From assembly GCA_903884005.1 (NCBI GenBank), contig CAISDA010000005.1:1-64000 (forward strand): DNA of 64,000 bases, given 5' to 3'. Position 1 is the first letter of the stretch. Every line of letters begins with the position of its first letter. The translations under genes and the position numbers were made by a program. Below the pieces are notes generated by a model, which worked only from the letters and a program-made list of their open reading frames with translations, ran no database searches and was not told the origin of the DNA. This DNA comes from an uncultured Ignavibacteriota bacterium (GTDB lineage Bacteria; Bacteroidota; Ignavibacteria; UBA10030; UBA8401). Below are positions 24,050 through 50,669 of the stretch, piece after piece.

Positions 24050-24245
24050 CCGTCGTGCAGGGCGTAATGGTATCTCGACCTGCTATGAAAATACTCGGCG
24101 GCATTTACTCCTGAGTAACTCACAAAAACGTGCACCGCTTCGCGGTGCGGGCGAGATAACATCTCGCCCTACATGCGCACCGATGCAACGGCAGCGAGTT
24201 GCTTCGAGAAAAAAGTTTGCCGGTGGCGAACAGACTGCGCTCTCT
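24050..24245 (+). repeat. Dispersed palindromic repeat, copy D (composite)
   Basis: The best copy of the core spans 24114-24203: AGTAACTC, then stem CGCACCGC-like/GCGGTGCG, then GGGCGAGAT-aac-ATCTCGCCC, then ATGCGCACCGATGCAACGGC, ending GCGAGTTGCT as the inverted terminal repeat. It is preceded by a decayed second unit (24050-24105) that has the TATGAAAATACTCGGCGGCAT module also present in copy E, and followed by the tail ending GCGAACAGACTGCGCTCTCT shared with copy B. It lies between two converging genes. Confidence 0.85.
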
Positions 24246-39697: not shown

Positions 39698-41254
39698 TTA
39701 AAATGGAAACTCTACCGGGATTTCTTTTTTCTCTTCGACGTGCTTTTGCTCGGGTTTCTTGGCTTTCCCGTGCACACTGCTTGCTTCCACAAAGATCGCC
39801 TTATTCGGCTTCACGGGGCAGGCGTGTTCGCACGCACCGCATCCGACGCAGAGTTCCTCTGTCATCTTCGGCAAGAAGAGTCCGTCCGTCTTCACCATTT
39901 GAACGGCTTTCGTGGGGCAGTGTTCAGAGCATGCTCCGCAATCCGTTTTTTTAGTGATAACGATGCAGTCCTCTTTGATGAATTTCGCCCGGCCGAGCTG
40001 CACTTCCTTCTTCTCGGAATTCGTCAGCGGCAGCAGTGCGCCCGAGGGGCAAACGGTCGTGCACACGGCGCATTCATACGCACAGTATGCCAGCGTGTAA
40101 TCCATTTTCGGCTGGAACATTCCCGTGACCCCGTATTCAAGAAATGACGACGTGATCACTTGCGACGGACACGCGGCGATGCAGAGATAACACGACGTGC
40201 ATGCGCTGGTGAAATGCGCCCGGCTTCGGGAACCGGGCGGAGTGACGACGCCGCGCAATTCAAACGCCGGCTGTACCGACGGCGCCGCCTGCGCCCGATC
40301 GAGCGAAACAACCGAAGTTGCAGCCGCCAGCAGCGCGGCCGATTGTTTCAGGACGTCCCTCCGCTTCGGATTTACGGACGATGCGGGCTCCGACCCCTTC
40401 TTCCCATACCGCAATGTGTAGTGGATGCCGATGGCGGGACACGCATCGATGCAGTTGTAACAGCTCACGCAGCGCGGAAAATCGACCTCCCTCTTTTTGT
40501 AATCGATGCACTCGGCCTTGCAGATCTTTTCGCACAGGCTGCAGTCCTTGCATTCCCCGAGATCGAATGTCAGCCGAAAGAGAGAGACGCGTGAGAGCAG
40601 GCGCAGCACTGCGCCAGTGGGACATACCGAATTGCAGAACAGGCGTCCGTGAAAATATGCCATCCAGAAGAGAATGCCTGCCGATGCCGCCGTCACAACG
40701 AAGACGGATCCAGCCACGGTGCGAAATGGCACCGCGTAGACGAAGTAGAGGTGAAGCCTGTCGGAGGCCCAGGCAAGGGCGTTGTTCGATCCGACAATGC
40801 CGGGACGGAACAACGTGTACGCGATCCGGCCAAAAAAACTGTACGGATCCAATAAATCGACGAGCAGCACGCTTCCGGCACACAAAAAGAACACCGACGA
40901 TGCGAGAAACGCGTAATGCACGAGTGTGAACGCCCGCGCATATTTGAATTTTCTCGGGCCACGCGTTCTTCTCGAGAGCGCGATAACGCCGTCCTGCAGT
41001 GTGCCGAGCGGACAGATCGAGGAACAATAGACGCGCCCCGCGAGGAGCGTGAGCGCGACCACAGCGACTAGTCCGACAATGGGCGTTCCGATGCGGATCA
41101 CCGTCATCACTGCGGGAATAAACTGCAGCGACGCCAGCGAGACGAGCAATGGTATCCGTGAAACATTACTGATGTCGATGAACAACAATAACACTGCACA
41201 AAAAAAAGCGGCCGAAACCCCGACACGGATCCTCTTCAAGTATTGATACATCAT
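39698..41254 (-). CDS. Membrane polyferredoxin (NapH-like plus ferredoxin fusion)
   Basis: Several membrane helices come first, with NapH/CcoG-like motifs CSSICPLGTLQDG and CNSVCPTGA. Two [4Fe-4S] motifs follow (CKDCSLCEKIC and CVSCYNCIDACP). A twin-Arg-like stretch, KRRDVLKQSAALLAAATSVV, then leads into a second ferredoxin part with CTSCYLCIAACP, CAYECAVCTTVCP, CGACSEHCP and CVGCGACEHACP. That makes eight Cys clusters, in effect a NapH-type and a NapG-type protein fused. It probably moves electrons across or along the membrane. The upstream 33 in-frame codons overlap dispersed repeat E, so I start at ATG 41254 (41251 is equally possible). DUF362 follows upstream on the same strand. Confidence 0.82.
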   Translation of the reverse strand: MMYQYLKRIRVGVSAAFFCAVLLLFIDISNVSRIPLLVSLASLQFIPAVMTVIRIGTPIVGLVAVVALTLLAGRVYCSSICPLGTLQDGVIALSRRTRGPRKFKYARAFTLVHYAFLASSVFFLCAGSVLLVDLLDPYSFFGRIAYTLFRPGIVGSNNALAWASDRLHLYFVYAVPFRTVAGSVFVVTAASAGILFWMAYFHGRLFCNSVCPTGAVLRLLSRVSLFRLTFDLGECKDCSLCEKICKAECIDYKKREVDFPRCVSCYNCIDACPAIGIHYTLRYGKKGSEPASSVNPKRRDVLKQSAALLAAATSVVSLDRAQAAPSVQPAFELRGVVTPPGSRSRAHFTSACTSCYLCIAACPSQVITSSFLEYGVTGMFQPKMDYTLAYCAYECAVCTTVCPSGALLPLTNSEKKEVQLGRAKFIKEDCIVITKKTDCGACSEHCPTKAVQMVKTDGLFLPKMTEELCVGCGACEHACPVKPNKAIFVEASSVHGKAKKPEQKHVEEKKEIPVEFPF

Positions 41255-41288
41255 TCCAGCAGCACTTTCGTTAGAATTGAATAACTTC

Positions 41289-41480
41289 AGTAACTCGCTC
41301 TTATTGTAGGGCGAGCTGTCAGCTCGCCCTGCTATGGAAATACTCGGCGGCATATGTGGTGCGTGTAGGGCGAGCTGTCAGCTCGCCCTCTCGCGAAATA
41401 ACATTTCGCCCTACATGCGCACCGATGTAACGGCAGCGAATTACTTCAAGAAAATAGTACGCCACTGGCGAACAGACTGT
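41289..41480 (+). repeat. Dispersed palindromic repeat, copy E (composite)
   Basis: Left end AGTAACTCGC at 41289 and right end GCGAATTACT at 41436-41445, with the tail GCGAACAGACTG beyond. Inside are two identical 26-base units at 41305-41330 and 41364-41389, each a perfect stem GGGCGAGCTG/CAGCTCGCCC, and a third hairpin at 41391-41411. The stem bases differ from those of other copies at paired positions, so pairing is kept. It separates the polyferredoxin gene from the DUF362 gene. Confidence 0.85.
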
Positions 41481-41511
41481 GTGACTCAGCGTGTGAAGCC
41501 GGCGGATCCCG

Positions 41512-42444
41512 TTACACCGTAATGCGTTTAATGTTCAAGTTTGCCAGATCGATGCGGCCAATTTTTTTCTCGGCGGCAATGGCGATATGCCGGATATCGG
41601 CCGGCTCCCATCCGAACAATTTCGTGGCTGCCGCATCGGCTGCCACCATGTCCGTCGAGACCAACAGCGATTTCATCGTGACCACATCGTCTGCCGAGAC
41701 GCCGCGGGGCCCGTTTTTCTTCATCACGGTATAGGCATCCACAACATTGAGCGTCGGTTTATGAAATGCGGCGAAATCGGCGATGCATTGATGGAGATCA
41801 TTGCGATGCCACTCCTTGCGGTCCCATACGATGCCCATGAGATTTTTCATGCAGACGGTCAGCTTTGCCCCGCCGTGATTTTTCAGGACAGGCACATTGA
41901 TGAAGACGTCCGATTCCATAATCAGTTCATGGACCTTCGCGTTCGGAAGTTTATCCGTGCCCGCCACGGTCACTTTTTGATAATAGTTTTCGGTATCGGC
42001 TGGGGCGATGCGGGCGCCAGCATCCTTCGCGGCGCGTTCGATGCCGCTGTTCGCATACGCACTTTTCCAGTCGTCGCATGTATGGTCGAACACCGTCACC
42101 TGCTTCGCGCCTGCGGCGTAGCAATGCTTGATGATCTGCGCGACCAATTTCGGATTTGTGTTCGCGCCGCGGTCGGGCGAGACATCCCAGCCGATGTTCG
42201 GCTTCACCACGACCATTGCGCCCTTCCACACGAACTGCTTCATGCCGCCCATGGCCTCCATGGCTTTGTCGAACATCACATCGGGCTCCCCGCCTTTCAC
42301 AGCGACAAGATCATACGGCGAGGGCGAGGGCGAGCCCGGCATCGGCGTGCCGGCGAACGCTTCGGCATATTTTCCCAGCGCCGGCATCGCGCCCGCTGCA
42401 AGTGCAGCGTATACACTCTTCTTGAAAAATTCTTTTCGATCCAT
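41512..42444 (-). CDS. DUF362 protein with a Tat-like N-terminus
   Basis: 310 residues of the DUF362 family, which is often found beside ferredoxins. The N-terminus DRKEFFKKSVYAALAAGAMP resembles a Tat signal with Arg-Lys in place of two Arg. The body has MVVVKPNIGWDVSPDRGANT, TVFDHTCDDWKSAYANSGIE, INVPVLKNHGGAKLTVCMKN and NLMGIVWDRKEWH, all typical. The molecular role is unknown; with the adjacent polyferredoxin a redox function outside the cytoplasm is plausible. Confidence 0.85.
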   Translation of the reverse strand: MDRKEFFKKSVYAALAAGAMPALGKYAEAFAGTPMPGSPSPSPYDLVAVKGGEPDVMFDKAMEAMGGMKQFVWKGAMVVVKPNIGWDVSPDRGANTNPKLVAQIIKHCYAAGAKQVTVFDHTCDDWKSAYANSGIERAAKDAGARIAPADTENYYQKVTVAGTDKLPNAKVHELIMESDVFINVPVLKNHGGAKLTVCMKNLMGIVWDRKEWHRNDLHQCIADFAAFHKPTLNVVDAYTVMKKNGPRGVSADDVVTMKSLLVSTDMVAADAAATKLFGWEPADIRHIAIAAEKKIGRIDLANLNIKRITV

Positions 42445-42581: not shown

Positions 42582-45500
42582 TCATTTTATCGGATACGGC
42601 GGCTTCGCCGGGAACACGAACGGTTTCTTCTTCAAATTCTCGAGCGCCGTCTGTATTGCCGTATCCAATTGCCGATCGCGGCCGGCCATCACCGATGCCG
42701 GGTCGTTATCGATCAGGATGGTCGGATCGGCGCCGTGATTTTCAACGATCCACTTTCCGCTGCTGTTGTAAAATGAATTATTGGACTGTTCCACTTTGCC
42801 GTTATCGATCGTCGCTTGTCCGTTCAGGATGCCGACCAGCCCGCCCCACGACGGGACGCCGACGACTTCGCCGAGGCCGTTGGCTTTGAAATCCTCCACG
42901 AATGCCTCGCCGTCCGATCCGTTGTTCTCGTTCGAAATGAGTACGTAATTCCCGTTGCCCGCGCTGCCCGGATAGCGGAATGGAGCCATTCCCTGCAGAC
43001 AATTGAATGAGGTCATCTTCCGTTCCAATTTATCGATCAGAAAATATTCCGTCCACCCGCCCGAATTTCTCCGGACGTCGATAATGACGCCCTCTTTATA
43101 ACGGAACGCCCTCCAGAATTTGTCGAACTCGCCGATGCCTCCCGAGCCCATTGCATTGATGTGCATGTATCCGAGCTTGCCGTCCGATACCTTCAGCACA
43201 TGCTCGATGTTGTCTGCAAGCCAGCGGTTGTACCGAAGGGCGGGGGTGTAGCGCACGGGTTCGACCGTATAGGTCCGGGCGCCGTCCATCGACGGTTCGG
43301 CGTTCACACTGACCGTCACTTTTTTTCCGGCCGTCATCTGGAGCAGCTTGTTGTAATCTTCGGGAACACGCAACGGCCTGCCATCGATGGCGACAATGTA
43401 GTCTCCCTCCTTCACGTCGATGTCGGGGCGCACCAGGGGGCCGGTGAGGTTGCGGTTGTAATCCGTCGGTCCGTAGATCTTTTCCAGCGTATAATATCCT
43501 GATTTCTTGTCCGCCGCAAGGTCGGCGCCCAGCCAACCTGTGTAGACTGTCGGGGATGCGGGGGGCGGTTCGCTCATATCTCCGCCGCTGACGTAGGTGT
43601 GCGAGACGCACAATTCTCCCACCATTTGCTGCAATGTCCAGTTGAGCTCTTCGCGCGACGAGAGTTGCGGAATATACGCCCGATACCTGTCGCCGATCGC
43701 CTTCCAGTCGCGTCCGTGCATGTTGGTGTCGTAGAAGAAATCGCGATACCATCGCCACGCATCGTTGAAGATCTGCGTCCACTCCTTATACGGCTCGACG
43801 GTGTATGTCATACCCGTGAGGTTCACGCGCTCGCCGGCGGATTTCGACGAAAACGCCTTCTCGAATGTCGTCACGAACACATCGTCGTCCTTTTGAATGG
43901 CGAGCTGCTCGCCGTTGGGCGACACTTCGGCGTTCCTGATCTTCTCGGCCATGACGGCTTCTTTTTTCTGTTCCATGTCGAAGATATGGAGATCCCATTT
44001 CGTGGCAGCACTCGGCGTGAAAATCTCCTCATACTCCGCTTCCGTAAATTTCGGAACGGAGCACCATGCTACTTTCCCCTTGCCCGCCTTCAGATAAAAA
44101 TAATTGCCCGCGGGGATCGGAAGTGGAAATGTGCGCCCGCGGAGCCCGGCGAGATCGATCGAGACCGCCTCGGGTGTCGTTTTCTTTTCGGACGCCGATT
44201 TATCCGCAGTGGTTTTCTCCGTCACATTCTTCACCGCGGCCGGCTGATCGGCAAACGGCGGCGCTTCGCCCGGGCGGAGCTGCACCGCCATGATCTGATG
44301 CGGCGCAGACACGACATGATTGTCTTCGTAAAAATCCATTTGCAGATCGAAATTCCGGCTCGAGATAAAATAGAGATACTTGCCATTCGCATCGAAACAG
44401 GGATACAGATTGTCGTAGAAATCGTCCGTGACGGCGGTGCGGTTCCGGCTCTGCGTATCATAGACGAAGATCTGGCTGTTGCGGTTGGGCTGGACGAAAC
44501 TGTAGCAGACCCACCGGCTGTCCGGCGACCAGTTATAATCGCTGATCTCCCAGTAGAATTCGTCGTTCTTCATCTGATGCGATTCGTCGATCTTTGTGAC
44601 CGATTTTGAATCGACATCGAGGATGAAAAGAGCGAACTCTTTGTTGCCGAAGAGTATCTTCTTCCCGTCGGGCGACCACAGCAGGTGGTAGTTTTTTTTA
44701 TTCAAGTCCTTTGTCAGAGGCAGCCATTCGCCTCCCTCTTTTTTCTGCAGATACATCTGGTATTCGCCGCTCTTGTCCGAAAAGAATGCGACCCACTTTC
44801 CATCCGGCGACAGCTGCGGATACTGTTCGCGCGTGCCGGGAGAGGCCGAAAGGTTCACGGGCAGTCCTTTCTCCGTCTGCGCGGTATAGATGTCGCCGCG
44901 CGCCTCGAGCACGATGCTCTTTCCGTCGTTCGCCGGGCTCACGGAATGGATGTACGTTTTCGGATTGATAACGCGTGTCCGTACCGACCAACGGTCCGAG
45001 GGAATCGTCACCTGTATCTTTTTCACCGACTGCGTTTTCAGATCCATCACATGAATGTACCCGTCGTGCATAAAAACGATCTGCTGCCCGTCCGTTGACG
45101 GCATCATGACATCGACGTCGGCATACGCCGAGATCTGATCGATCTTCTTCGTCGTTAAATTTTCGCGGTAGAGATTGGCCACGCCGTTCGTGCGGTCCGA
45201 GACAAAATACATCTCGTCGGCGCCCGTCCACATCGGATACGCGTTCTTGCCGACGTAGTCCGAGACCGGCGTGAAGGCCTTCGTCCCGAAGTCATACATC
45301 CAGATGTCGACATACTGCCCGCCTTTGTACCGTTTCCAATAATATTCTTCGGCGCCTCTGCGGCAGTAGAGCATTTTTTTCCCGTCCGGCGAAAAACTGC
45401 AGAGCACGCCGCGGTCTATCGGAAAGCGCTCCGGCGCCGAGCCCGCCTTGTTCACAAAAAACAGGTTCGGGTCGCGCCCGACGACGTTTTCCATCATCGA

Positions 45501-45872
45501 CCGGAACACGATGCGTTCGCCGTCGCGCGTCCAGCCGAGGCTTTGCGCGCCGCTGACGGTGTATGTGACCCGCACCGGCTGGCCGCCGTCGGACGGAATG
45601 GTATAGACAGCGCTTGGGCCGTCGTACGTGCCCGTAAACGCGATGGCTGCGCCATCCGGAGAAAATTTCGCCGAGTATTCATTGCCCGGTGCCGAGGTGA
45701 TGCGCGAGGCCGTTCCGCCCGCGGTCGTGGTCAGCCAGAGATCTCCCTCGTACGTGAAGACAATCTTGTCCCGGAAAATATCGGGATTCTTCATGAACCG
45801 GCCCTCGTCCGCGGCAACGGACAGGGACGCACATGCGCACAGTAGGATCAACAATGAAACGACTTTACTCAT
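42582..45872 (-). CDS. Tricorn-type S41 peptidase
   Basis: 1096 residues with a signal peptide (1-20). Residues from about 25 to 500 are PD40/TolB-like propeller repeats (SPDGAAIAFTGTYDG, SPDGKKMLYCRRG, LSPDGKWVAFFSDKSGEYQM). A lower-complexity Lys/Thr-rich segment follows, then the tricorn core domain (IFNDAWRWYRDFFYDTNMHG), a PDZ domain (KEGDYIVAIDGRPLRVPEDY) and the S41 catalytic domain with the nucleophile in NENNGSDGEAFVEDF. Such proteins degrade peptides in the periplasm in bacteria with a signal peptide. It stands alone between two DUF362/GH38 regions. Confidence 0.92.
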   Translation of the reverse strand: MSKVVSLLILLCACASLSVAADEGRFMKNPDIFRDKIVFTYEGDLWLTTTAGGTASRITSAPGNEYSAKFSPDGAAIAFTGTYDGPSAVYTIPSDGGQPVRVTYTVSGAQSLGWTRDGERIVFRSMMENVVGRDPNLFFVNKAGSAPERFPIDRGVLCSFSPDGKKMLYCRRGAEEYYWKRYKGGQYVDIWMYDFGTKAFTPVSDYVGKNAYPMWTGADEMYFVSDRTNGVANLYRENLTTKKIDQISAYADVDVMMPSTDGQQIVFMHDGYIHVMDLKTQSVKKIQVTIPSDRWSVRTRVINPKTYIHSVSPANDGKSIVLEARGDIYTAQTEKGLPVNLSASPGTREQYPQLSPDGKWVAFFSDKSGEYQMYLQKKEGGEWLPLTKDLNKKNYHLLWSPDGKKILFGNKEFALFILDVDSKSVTKIDESHQMKNDEFYWEISDYNWSPDSRWVCYSFVQPNRNSQIFVYDTQSRNRTAVTDDFYDNLYPCFDANGKYLYFISSRNFDLQMDFYEDNHVVSAPHQIMAVQLRPGEAPPFADQPAAVKNVTEKTTADKSASEKKTTPEAVSIDLAGLRGRTFPLPIPAGNYFYLKAGKGKVAWCSVPKFTEAEYEEIFTPSAATKWDLHIFDMEQKKEAVMAEKIRNAEVSPNGEQLAIQKDDDVFVTTFEKAFSSKSAGERVNLTGMTYTVEPYKEWTQIFNDAWRWYRDFFYDTNMHGRDWKAIGDRYRAYIPQLSSREELNWTLQQMVGELCVSHTYVSGGDMSEPPPASPTVYTGWLGADLAADKKSGYYTLEKIYGPTDYNRNLTGPLVRPDIDVKEGDYIVAIDGRPLRVPEDYNKLLQMTAGKKVTVSVNAEPSMDGARTYTVEPVRYTPALRYNRWLADNIEHVLKVSDGKLGYMHINAMGSGGIGEFDKFWRAFRYKEGVIIDVRRNSGGWTEYFLIDKLERKMTSFNCLQGMAPFRYPGSAGNGNYVLISNENNGSDGEAFVEDFKANGLGEVVGVPSWGGLVGILNGQATIDNGKVEQSNNSFYNSSGKWIVENHGADPTILIDNDPASVMAGRDRQLDTAIQTALENLKKKPFVFPAKPPYPIK

Positions 45873-50538: not shown

Positions 50539-50669
50539 AGTAACTCGCACCGCTTCGCGGCGCAGGCGAGATAACAGCTCGCCCTACAAGTTCTACGATG
50601 CAACAACGAGTGAAAATTAATTACGAGTGACTATACTGAAAAAACCACGCCGCTTGCGCATCAGCCGCG
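50539..50669 (+). repeat. Dispersed palindromic repeat, copy G
   Basis: AGTAACTCGC, first stem GCACCGC-ttc-GCGGCGC, second stem GGCGAGATaacaGCTCGCC, then CTACGATGCAACAACGAGTG and a tail with ACGAGTGACTATAC also seen in copy H. It lies between the second permease gene and the HAD gene, inside an apparent operon. Confidence 0.75.

Follow-up and report, generated by a model that had tools for sequence, protein, structure and literature searches.

We found that a fused NapH-NapG polyferredoxin (here PFD) and a protein of family DUF362, encoded on the 64,000-nucleotide stretch of DNA analyzed here (the window; positions 1 to 64,000 of contig CAISDA010000005.1, assembly GCA_903884005.1, from an uncultured Ignavibacteriota bacterium), form a solid, conserved two-gene unit that joins a known relay to a family of unknown function. 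On balance, we favor the view that PFD and this DUF362 subfamily make up a dedicated two-protein extracytoplasmic redox unit, in which a quinol-fed relay would dock by its C-terminal tail and pass electrons to its partner. Both open reading frames (ORFs) lie where an earlier note, made from the sequence alone, had placed them, with the DUF362 gene preceding PFD in the direction of transcription.

Conservation of the PFD-DUF362 pair

Among 395 genomes of the organism's phylum, 40 encoded both proteins, none the DUF362 subfamily only, 2 PFD only, and 353 neither (Fisher p = 7e-53, shared ancestry being ignored). The two PFD-only genomes (G377 and G420) carry the reductase-linked form of PFD described below. 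The proposal of the earlier note stood or fell with conserved pairing in other genomes, and pairing was kept: all 40 genomes with the DUF362 subfamily have PFD, and 39 of these pairs are adjacent and codirectional with DUF362 first, the gap in G247 being ~670 bases. In a survey of 148 genomes across the phylum, the identical 18 carried PFD and DUF362; all 18 are included in the 395-genome set. The three best candidates per genome were scored in the larger survey and up to nine in the smaller one, and sampling beyond the phylum covered a plasmid collection only. Among 41 relatives, PFD was found in 15 (E < 1e-40) and the DUF362 subfamily in 16 (E < 1e-50), the two being adjacent in 14/15; in G012, both genes of the pair end at contig ends.

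Within family f1, six genomes carry both genes (G000, G001, G003, G004, G012, and G016), and no orthologue-level match to PFD or DUF362 was obtained in the others (G002, G005-G011, G013-G015, G017, G018, G020, and G021). Because the genomes are related, such patchy joint presence within families is a stronger argument than the Fisher p value.

Comparison of 28 neighborhoods, some of them short, revealed no third gene recurring in more than 7 loci, and the operon therefore does not reveal an electron donor or acceptor, which the earlier note had hoped to read from conserved neighbors. A divergently transcribed membrane protein of ~170-200 codons lies just upstream of DUF362 in 7/28 loci, all of family f7 (L086, 11446-12024, with equivalents in L087-L091 and L093), and had no Pfam match in the two cases scanned. 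Other recurring neighbors were found in at most 4/28 loci.

Architecture of PFD

The Pfam matches of PFD were to Fer4_5, which is the membrane module of NapH type, and to several dicluster models of Fer4. NCBIfam placed NapG at residues 326-544 and the best stretch of NapH at 220-319, both under the curated cut-offs (66.8 versus 269 and 65.7 versus 234), so that PFD does not have the status of a NapG or NapH equivalog. Together with the twin-arginine K330-R331-R332, these matches bear out a NapH-like half and a NapG-like half with a stretch resembling a twin-arginine translocation (Tat) signal between them, as proposed earlier. Kyte-Doolittle hydropathy delineated hydrophobic stretches at residues 39-116 (probably two segments), 141-172, and 202-235, and the fifth segment fell below the cut used.

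Two sequences, L147 (G012), whose two pieces are separated by a frameshift, and the split gene L075, were excluded from the alignment of 40 homologues and from the tree described below. In this alignment, 28 cysteines were invariant, comprising 8 in the NapH-half motifs, 16 in the four NapG-half motifs (C385-395, C424-435, C463-479, and C502-512), and 4 in the CX3CP motifs. C282 is a further near-invariant cysteine (29/32 and 8/8). The eight clusters of the earlier note correspond to cysteine motifs that include the CX3CP pair; PFD has six ferredoxin-type [4Fe-4S] motifs, of which two are predicted to be cytoplasmic and four exported. In relatives, the CX3CP motifs were judged likelier to form disulfides than clusters because NosR held at most 8 iron atoms (PMC5928378).

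The module of NapGH-type quinol dehydrogenases, a NapH half that combines two CX3CP with two [4Fe-4S] motifs, is present in 40/40 homologues and, as judged from sequence motifs, PFD also has the Tat-directed half with four [4Fe-4S] motifs. As in polyferredoxins that use both the general secretory (Sec) and Tat pathways, the twin-arginine stands right before the last, weakly hydrophobic segment (segments by hydropathy). R332 is invariant in the 40 homologues, position 331 being R in 28 and K in 12 of them. In G103 (L075, 6630-9148), the NapH and NapG halves are separate genes that follow DUF362 and share a few bases; the NapG gene starts at an ATG of its own, and its product has both a twin-arginine and the tail DFGF. 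The genome from which the window comes encodes TatC; this protein was found in 14/15 pair genomes, the exception being 71% complete, and also in 38/41 of all relatives. Searches with PFD against the sequences of solved structures returned 23 matches at E values up to 0.001, to ferredoxin-type parts of other complexes. An AlphaFold2 model of PFD from a seven-row alignment had a mean predicted local distance difference test score (pLDDT) of 34.5 and was dropped from further use.

A C-terminal tail of DUF362-linked PFDs

PFD ends in F-[P/G]-F in 35/36 DUF362-linked proteins, in contrast to 0/8 reductase-linked PFDs and 0/718 other ORFs, the latter being called mechanically in all six frames of the same loci, with a minimum length of 150 codons, and mostly not genes. 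Tails were read in the part of the 40 DUF362-positive genomes for which DNA was fetched; the 36 comprise the 32 DUF362-linked rows of the alignment and tree, including the nonadjacent G193, plus G012, G016, G037, and G103. The tail of G012 (L147) is EFPF. The sole miss is L085 (G025), which is included in the tree but is not among the 31 rows of the tail table. In that table, positions -1 and -3 are F in all 31 rows, position -2 is P (28) or G (3), position -4 is acidic in 29, and positions -6 to -18 form a degenerate linker. DUF362-linked PFDs extend 37-42 residues past the last cluster cysteine (31 rows), versus 19 residues in the reductase-linked proteins (8/8). The acidic, -PF end of the bacterial single-stranded DNA-binding protein docks into partner proteins, and the PFD tail is alike in style.

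The DUF362 partner

The DUF362 protein of the window matched PF04015 with 178.2 bits (E = 2.7e-52; gathering cut-off, 24). Its description as a Tat-like protein preceding PFD was confirmed, with the qualification that its N terminus, DRKEFF, has RK and not RR. Among 31 paired DUF362 starts, 27 match [DNKHE]RR.F, 3 have RK (the window included), and 1 reads MRRRDF.

Paired DUF362 proteins were compared with 18 unpaired rows (14 distinct) from genomes without a PFD orthologue; residue numbers in the comparison table are seven higher than those given here. Both groups keep K81, N83, K188, H190, K200, N201, G204, D223, and D236, which include the family-wide patterns K, N, K-x-H, and K-N-x-x-G. 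Characteristic of the paired proteins are C108 and C123 (31/31), C220 (29/31), and H213 (30/31), the unpaired proteins having mostly L, T, T, and T at the positions of C108, C123, C220, and H213. A CxxC motif was found in 0/31 paired proteins.

DUF362 is reported to occur with Fe-S domains (PMC5742341, PMC7955657), and the paired form might borrow clusters that the family carries elsewhere. This idea is unsupported in this clade, because none of the 14 distinct unpaired DUF362 proteins from relatives has CxxCxxCxxxC. The DUF362 protein had no real match among the sequences of solved structures (best E, 1.7). An AlphaFold2 model from a seven-row alignment was poor (mean pLDDT, 44.9), and its structural matches were only of a generic Rossmann type, the best being to an alcohol dehydrogenase with Foldseek (E, 1.3e-3) and at Z 6.8 with VIA. 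The 50 matches listed for each program included no LarA-type structure, an absence that carries no weight as evidence.

The 615-codon DUF362 ORF of locus L135 carries a Por_Secre_tail, the type IX sorting domain, so that certain DUF362 proteins apparently reach the cell surface.

Reductase-linked paralogues

PFD paralogues in Parabacteroides, Bacteroides, and three genomes of the phylum (G373, G377, and G420) adjoin an aldo/keto reductase in 8/8 cases. A Tat-type start is present in each reductase that was translated, and a C-terminal Fe-S dicluster domain in both of those scanned. The PFD relay thus seems to be a module that serves exported redox partners. G373 and one Parabacteroides distasonis strain carry both kinds of PFD, the DUF362-linked copy with the tail and the reductase-linked copies without it. 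In a tree of 40 PFDs, whose root was placed for drawing only and in which L085 is a very long branch, the reductase-linked proteins form one group next to G268 (96/89), indicating that the partner switch and the loss of the tail were one event.

The tailless paralogues at L028, L029, and L140-L144, together with their reductases, represent a putative second exported redox pair. Loci L027-L029 come from PLSDB records labelled as Parabacteroides or Bacteroides plasmids (NZ_OY725750, NZ_OY725762, and NZ_OY725888), which carry tgt, ftsK, and other chromosomal-looking genes and are probably chromosome fragments.

Proposed mechanism and alternative explanations

In the redox unit that we favor, PFD would be inserted by Sec via its NapH half and finished by Tat, leaving two [4Fe-4S] clusters in the cytoplasm and four in the periplasm. 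It would take electrons from menaquinol at the NapH-type site, a cytoplasmic donor also being possible, and pass them along the four exported clusters. The end of PFD, in most cases [D/E]-F-[P/G]-F-COOH preceded by a linker that varies, may dock into the Tat-exported DUF362 protein, which would receive electrons at a site formed by the conserved Lys, His, and Asn residues together with C108 and C123 (and C220). A membrane electron-transfer unit, as suggested by the earlier note, is the best reading of the pairing, the cluster motifs, the Tat-type motifs, and the tail; electron transfer itself, like the physical docking, the quinol donor, the direction of flow, and export, is inferred. More speculatively, proteins of this DUF362 subfamily might act as terminal enzymes in a hitherto undescribed periplasmic reductase system coupled to quinol, in which the relay selects its enzyme by an F-[P/G]-F plug that was lost on the switch to the aldo/keto reductase.

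Several observations weigh against a redox unit of this kind. The paired DUF362 proteins are without a recognized electron-carrying motif, and structure prediction failed for both partners. The contrast between tails and partners is one change on the tree, that is, one evolutionary event and not eight. The divergent pair of G025 (L085) lacks both the tail (NPYG, 33 residues) and C220, and Q or N replaces the acidic residue in two rows of the 31-row table. PFD and DUF362 of G193 are on separate contigs, and neither gene lies at a contig end; the DUF362 gene of G019 is truncated at the edge of its contig, and that genome yielded no PFD orthologue.

The invariant, subfamily-specific cysteines of the paired DUF362 proteins would also suit a role of PFD in maturation, in which it keeps DUF362 active by cysteine reduction or metal loading and DUF362 is not a redox enzyme; NosR, for one, is reported to act in both NosZ activation and electron transfer (PMC5928378). 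We consider this unlikely: there is no further widely conserved gene beside the pair, and the paralogous PFDs adjoin enzymes with an Fe-S domain of their own, which fits a direct relay. Electrons might also run the other way, from DUF362 as an exported dehydrogenase or oxidase through PFD into the quinone pool, in keeping with the reuse of NapH-like modules with many partners, from oxidases as well as towards reductases (PMC8238504). The characterized NapGH, of the same architecture, is reported to run from menaquinol outward (PMC5928378). Reverse flow strikes us as improbable.

The tail itself might be a tag for a periplasmic PDZ-type protease or another quality-control factor and not a dock for DUF362. 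C-terminal hydrophobic tags of this sort are known from DegS, the PFD C terminus is hydrophobic, and a PDZ-bearing tricorn/S41 protease is encoded next door in the window. This protease is not among the recurring neighbors, however, and reductase-linked PFDs are tailless even in genomes with both kinds, so that we give the tag little credence. Finally, DUF362 belongs to Pfam clan CL0471 together with the LarA superfamily (PMC11770544) and could work like lactate racemase with a nickel-pincer nucleotide, PFD merely keeping the center reduced. H190 and K200 of DUF362 aligned with an H and a K of LarA-type sequences in one nonsignificant alignment, and LarC, which serves in synthesis of the nickel-pincer nucleotide, was matched in 12/15 pair genomes. 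Profile comparison was not significant (E, 0.23-0.42, with low-diversity profiles), and LarC was not matched in G003 and G016, pair genomes both listed as 100% complete, an absence that argues against the nickel-pincer cofactor being strictly required, although each of the two has a weak Lar_N match. A LarA-like mechanism is, in our judgment, very improbable.

For the proposed redox unit, a strict NapGH-type partner and a short, mutable contact point offer a direct handle on the function of this DUF362 subfamily, and the tail may point to a rule by which modular relays are matched to their enzymes.

Locus features

The start of PFD is probably the ATG at 41254 rather than at 41353, because the open frame of its nearest homologue (L021, 84% identical) starts at the equivalent MMY and because the 33 extra codons cover a copy of a dispersed repeat. 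This repeat, a palindrome (GGGCGAG...CTCGCCC) resembling repetitive extragenic palindromes, has 79 exact pattern matches in the genome versus 0 for a reversed control. Further copies in the window lie at 24149-24172 and at 50564-50587, the latter matching with mismatches only. Upstream of the pair, 42582-45872 encodes a tricorn-like beta-propeller with PDZ and S41 protease domains (Pfam).

Table 1. Coordinates of the PFD-DUF362 locus in the window
Feature	Position	Strand	Basis
DUF362 protein, 310 residues, upstream partner	41512..42444	-	PF04015, E 2.7e-52; orthologues in 40/395 genomes
Tat-type signal of DUF362, residues 1-31 (region end approximate)	42352..42444	-	DRKEFF N terminus
PFD, fused NapH-NapG polyferredoxin, 518 residues from the likely start	39698..41254	-	start from homologue comparison
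PFD ORF as listed, 551 residues	39698..41353	-	ORF list
NapH-like membrane half	40400..41254	-	Fer4_5; hydropathy
First CX3CP motif, C110/C114	41009..41026	-	cysteines invariant in 40/40
Second CX3CP motif, C240/C244	40619..40636	-	cysteines invariant in 40/40
Two [4Fe-4S] motifs of the NapH half, C268-278 and C295-305, predicted cytoplasmic	40439..40552	-	eight cysteines invariant in 40/40
KRRDVLK, internal Tat motif, with the fifth, weakly hydrophobic segment (residues ~330-360)	40274..40366	-	R332 invariant
NapG-like half, predicted to be exported, with four [4Fe-4S] motifs (C385-C512)	39818..40201	-	16 cysteines invariant in 40/40; NapG match
Tail E-F-P-F-COOH, proposed docking peptide	39701..39712	-	F-[P/G]-F conservation
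Dispersed palindromic repeat, first of two intergenic copies	41306..41332	.	repeat search
Dispersed palindromic repeat, second of two intergenic copies	41365..41391	.	repeat search

Comparison with known systems

In the literature searched, much of it seen in part and most subscription journals lying outside its reach, we found in print neither the PFD-DUF362 partnership nor a partner-specific C-terminal tail, nor an assigned function for DUF362. The NapH-NapG fusion as such is already known. Tooke et al. (2017; PMC5449189) described polytopic polyferredoxins with NapH fused to NapG, integrated by both Sec and Tat, and Tat-dependent translocation of reporters on polyferredoxin membrane segments; the term DUF362 is absent from the main text of that paper. 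Their protein from delta proteobacterium MLMS-1 (Q1NSB0) shares with PFD the fusion, the twin-arginine before a weak fifth segment, and the exported cluster domain. It differs, in a comparison by description, in having seven clusters, three of them cytoplasmic, whereas PFD has six ferredoxin-type motifs.

The reductase-linked PFDs of Bacteroides, Parabacteroides, and relatives have the same relay, ~35-40% identical to PFD of the window and with all 28 cysteines, but are tailless and partnered with an aldo/keto reductase. Compared with DUF362 (PF04015) in general, the paired form has the same Pfam match and family residues but is short, has a Tat-type start and C108/C123, and is tied to PFD. 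The NapGH quinol dehydrogenase, which relays electrons from menaquinol to NapA (PMC5928378), has the same membrane module with two CX3CP and two [4Fe-4S] motifs and the same exported four-cluster part. Unlike NapGH, PFD is a single polypeptide, scores far below the NCBIfam cut-offs, and is partnered with DUF362 instead of nitrate reductase.

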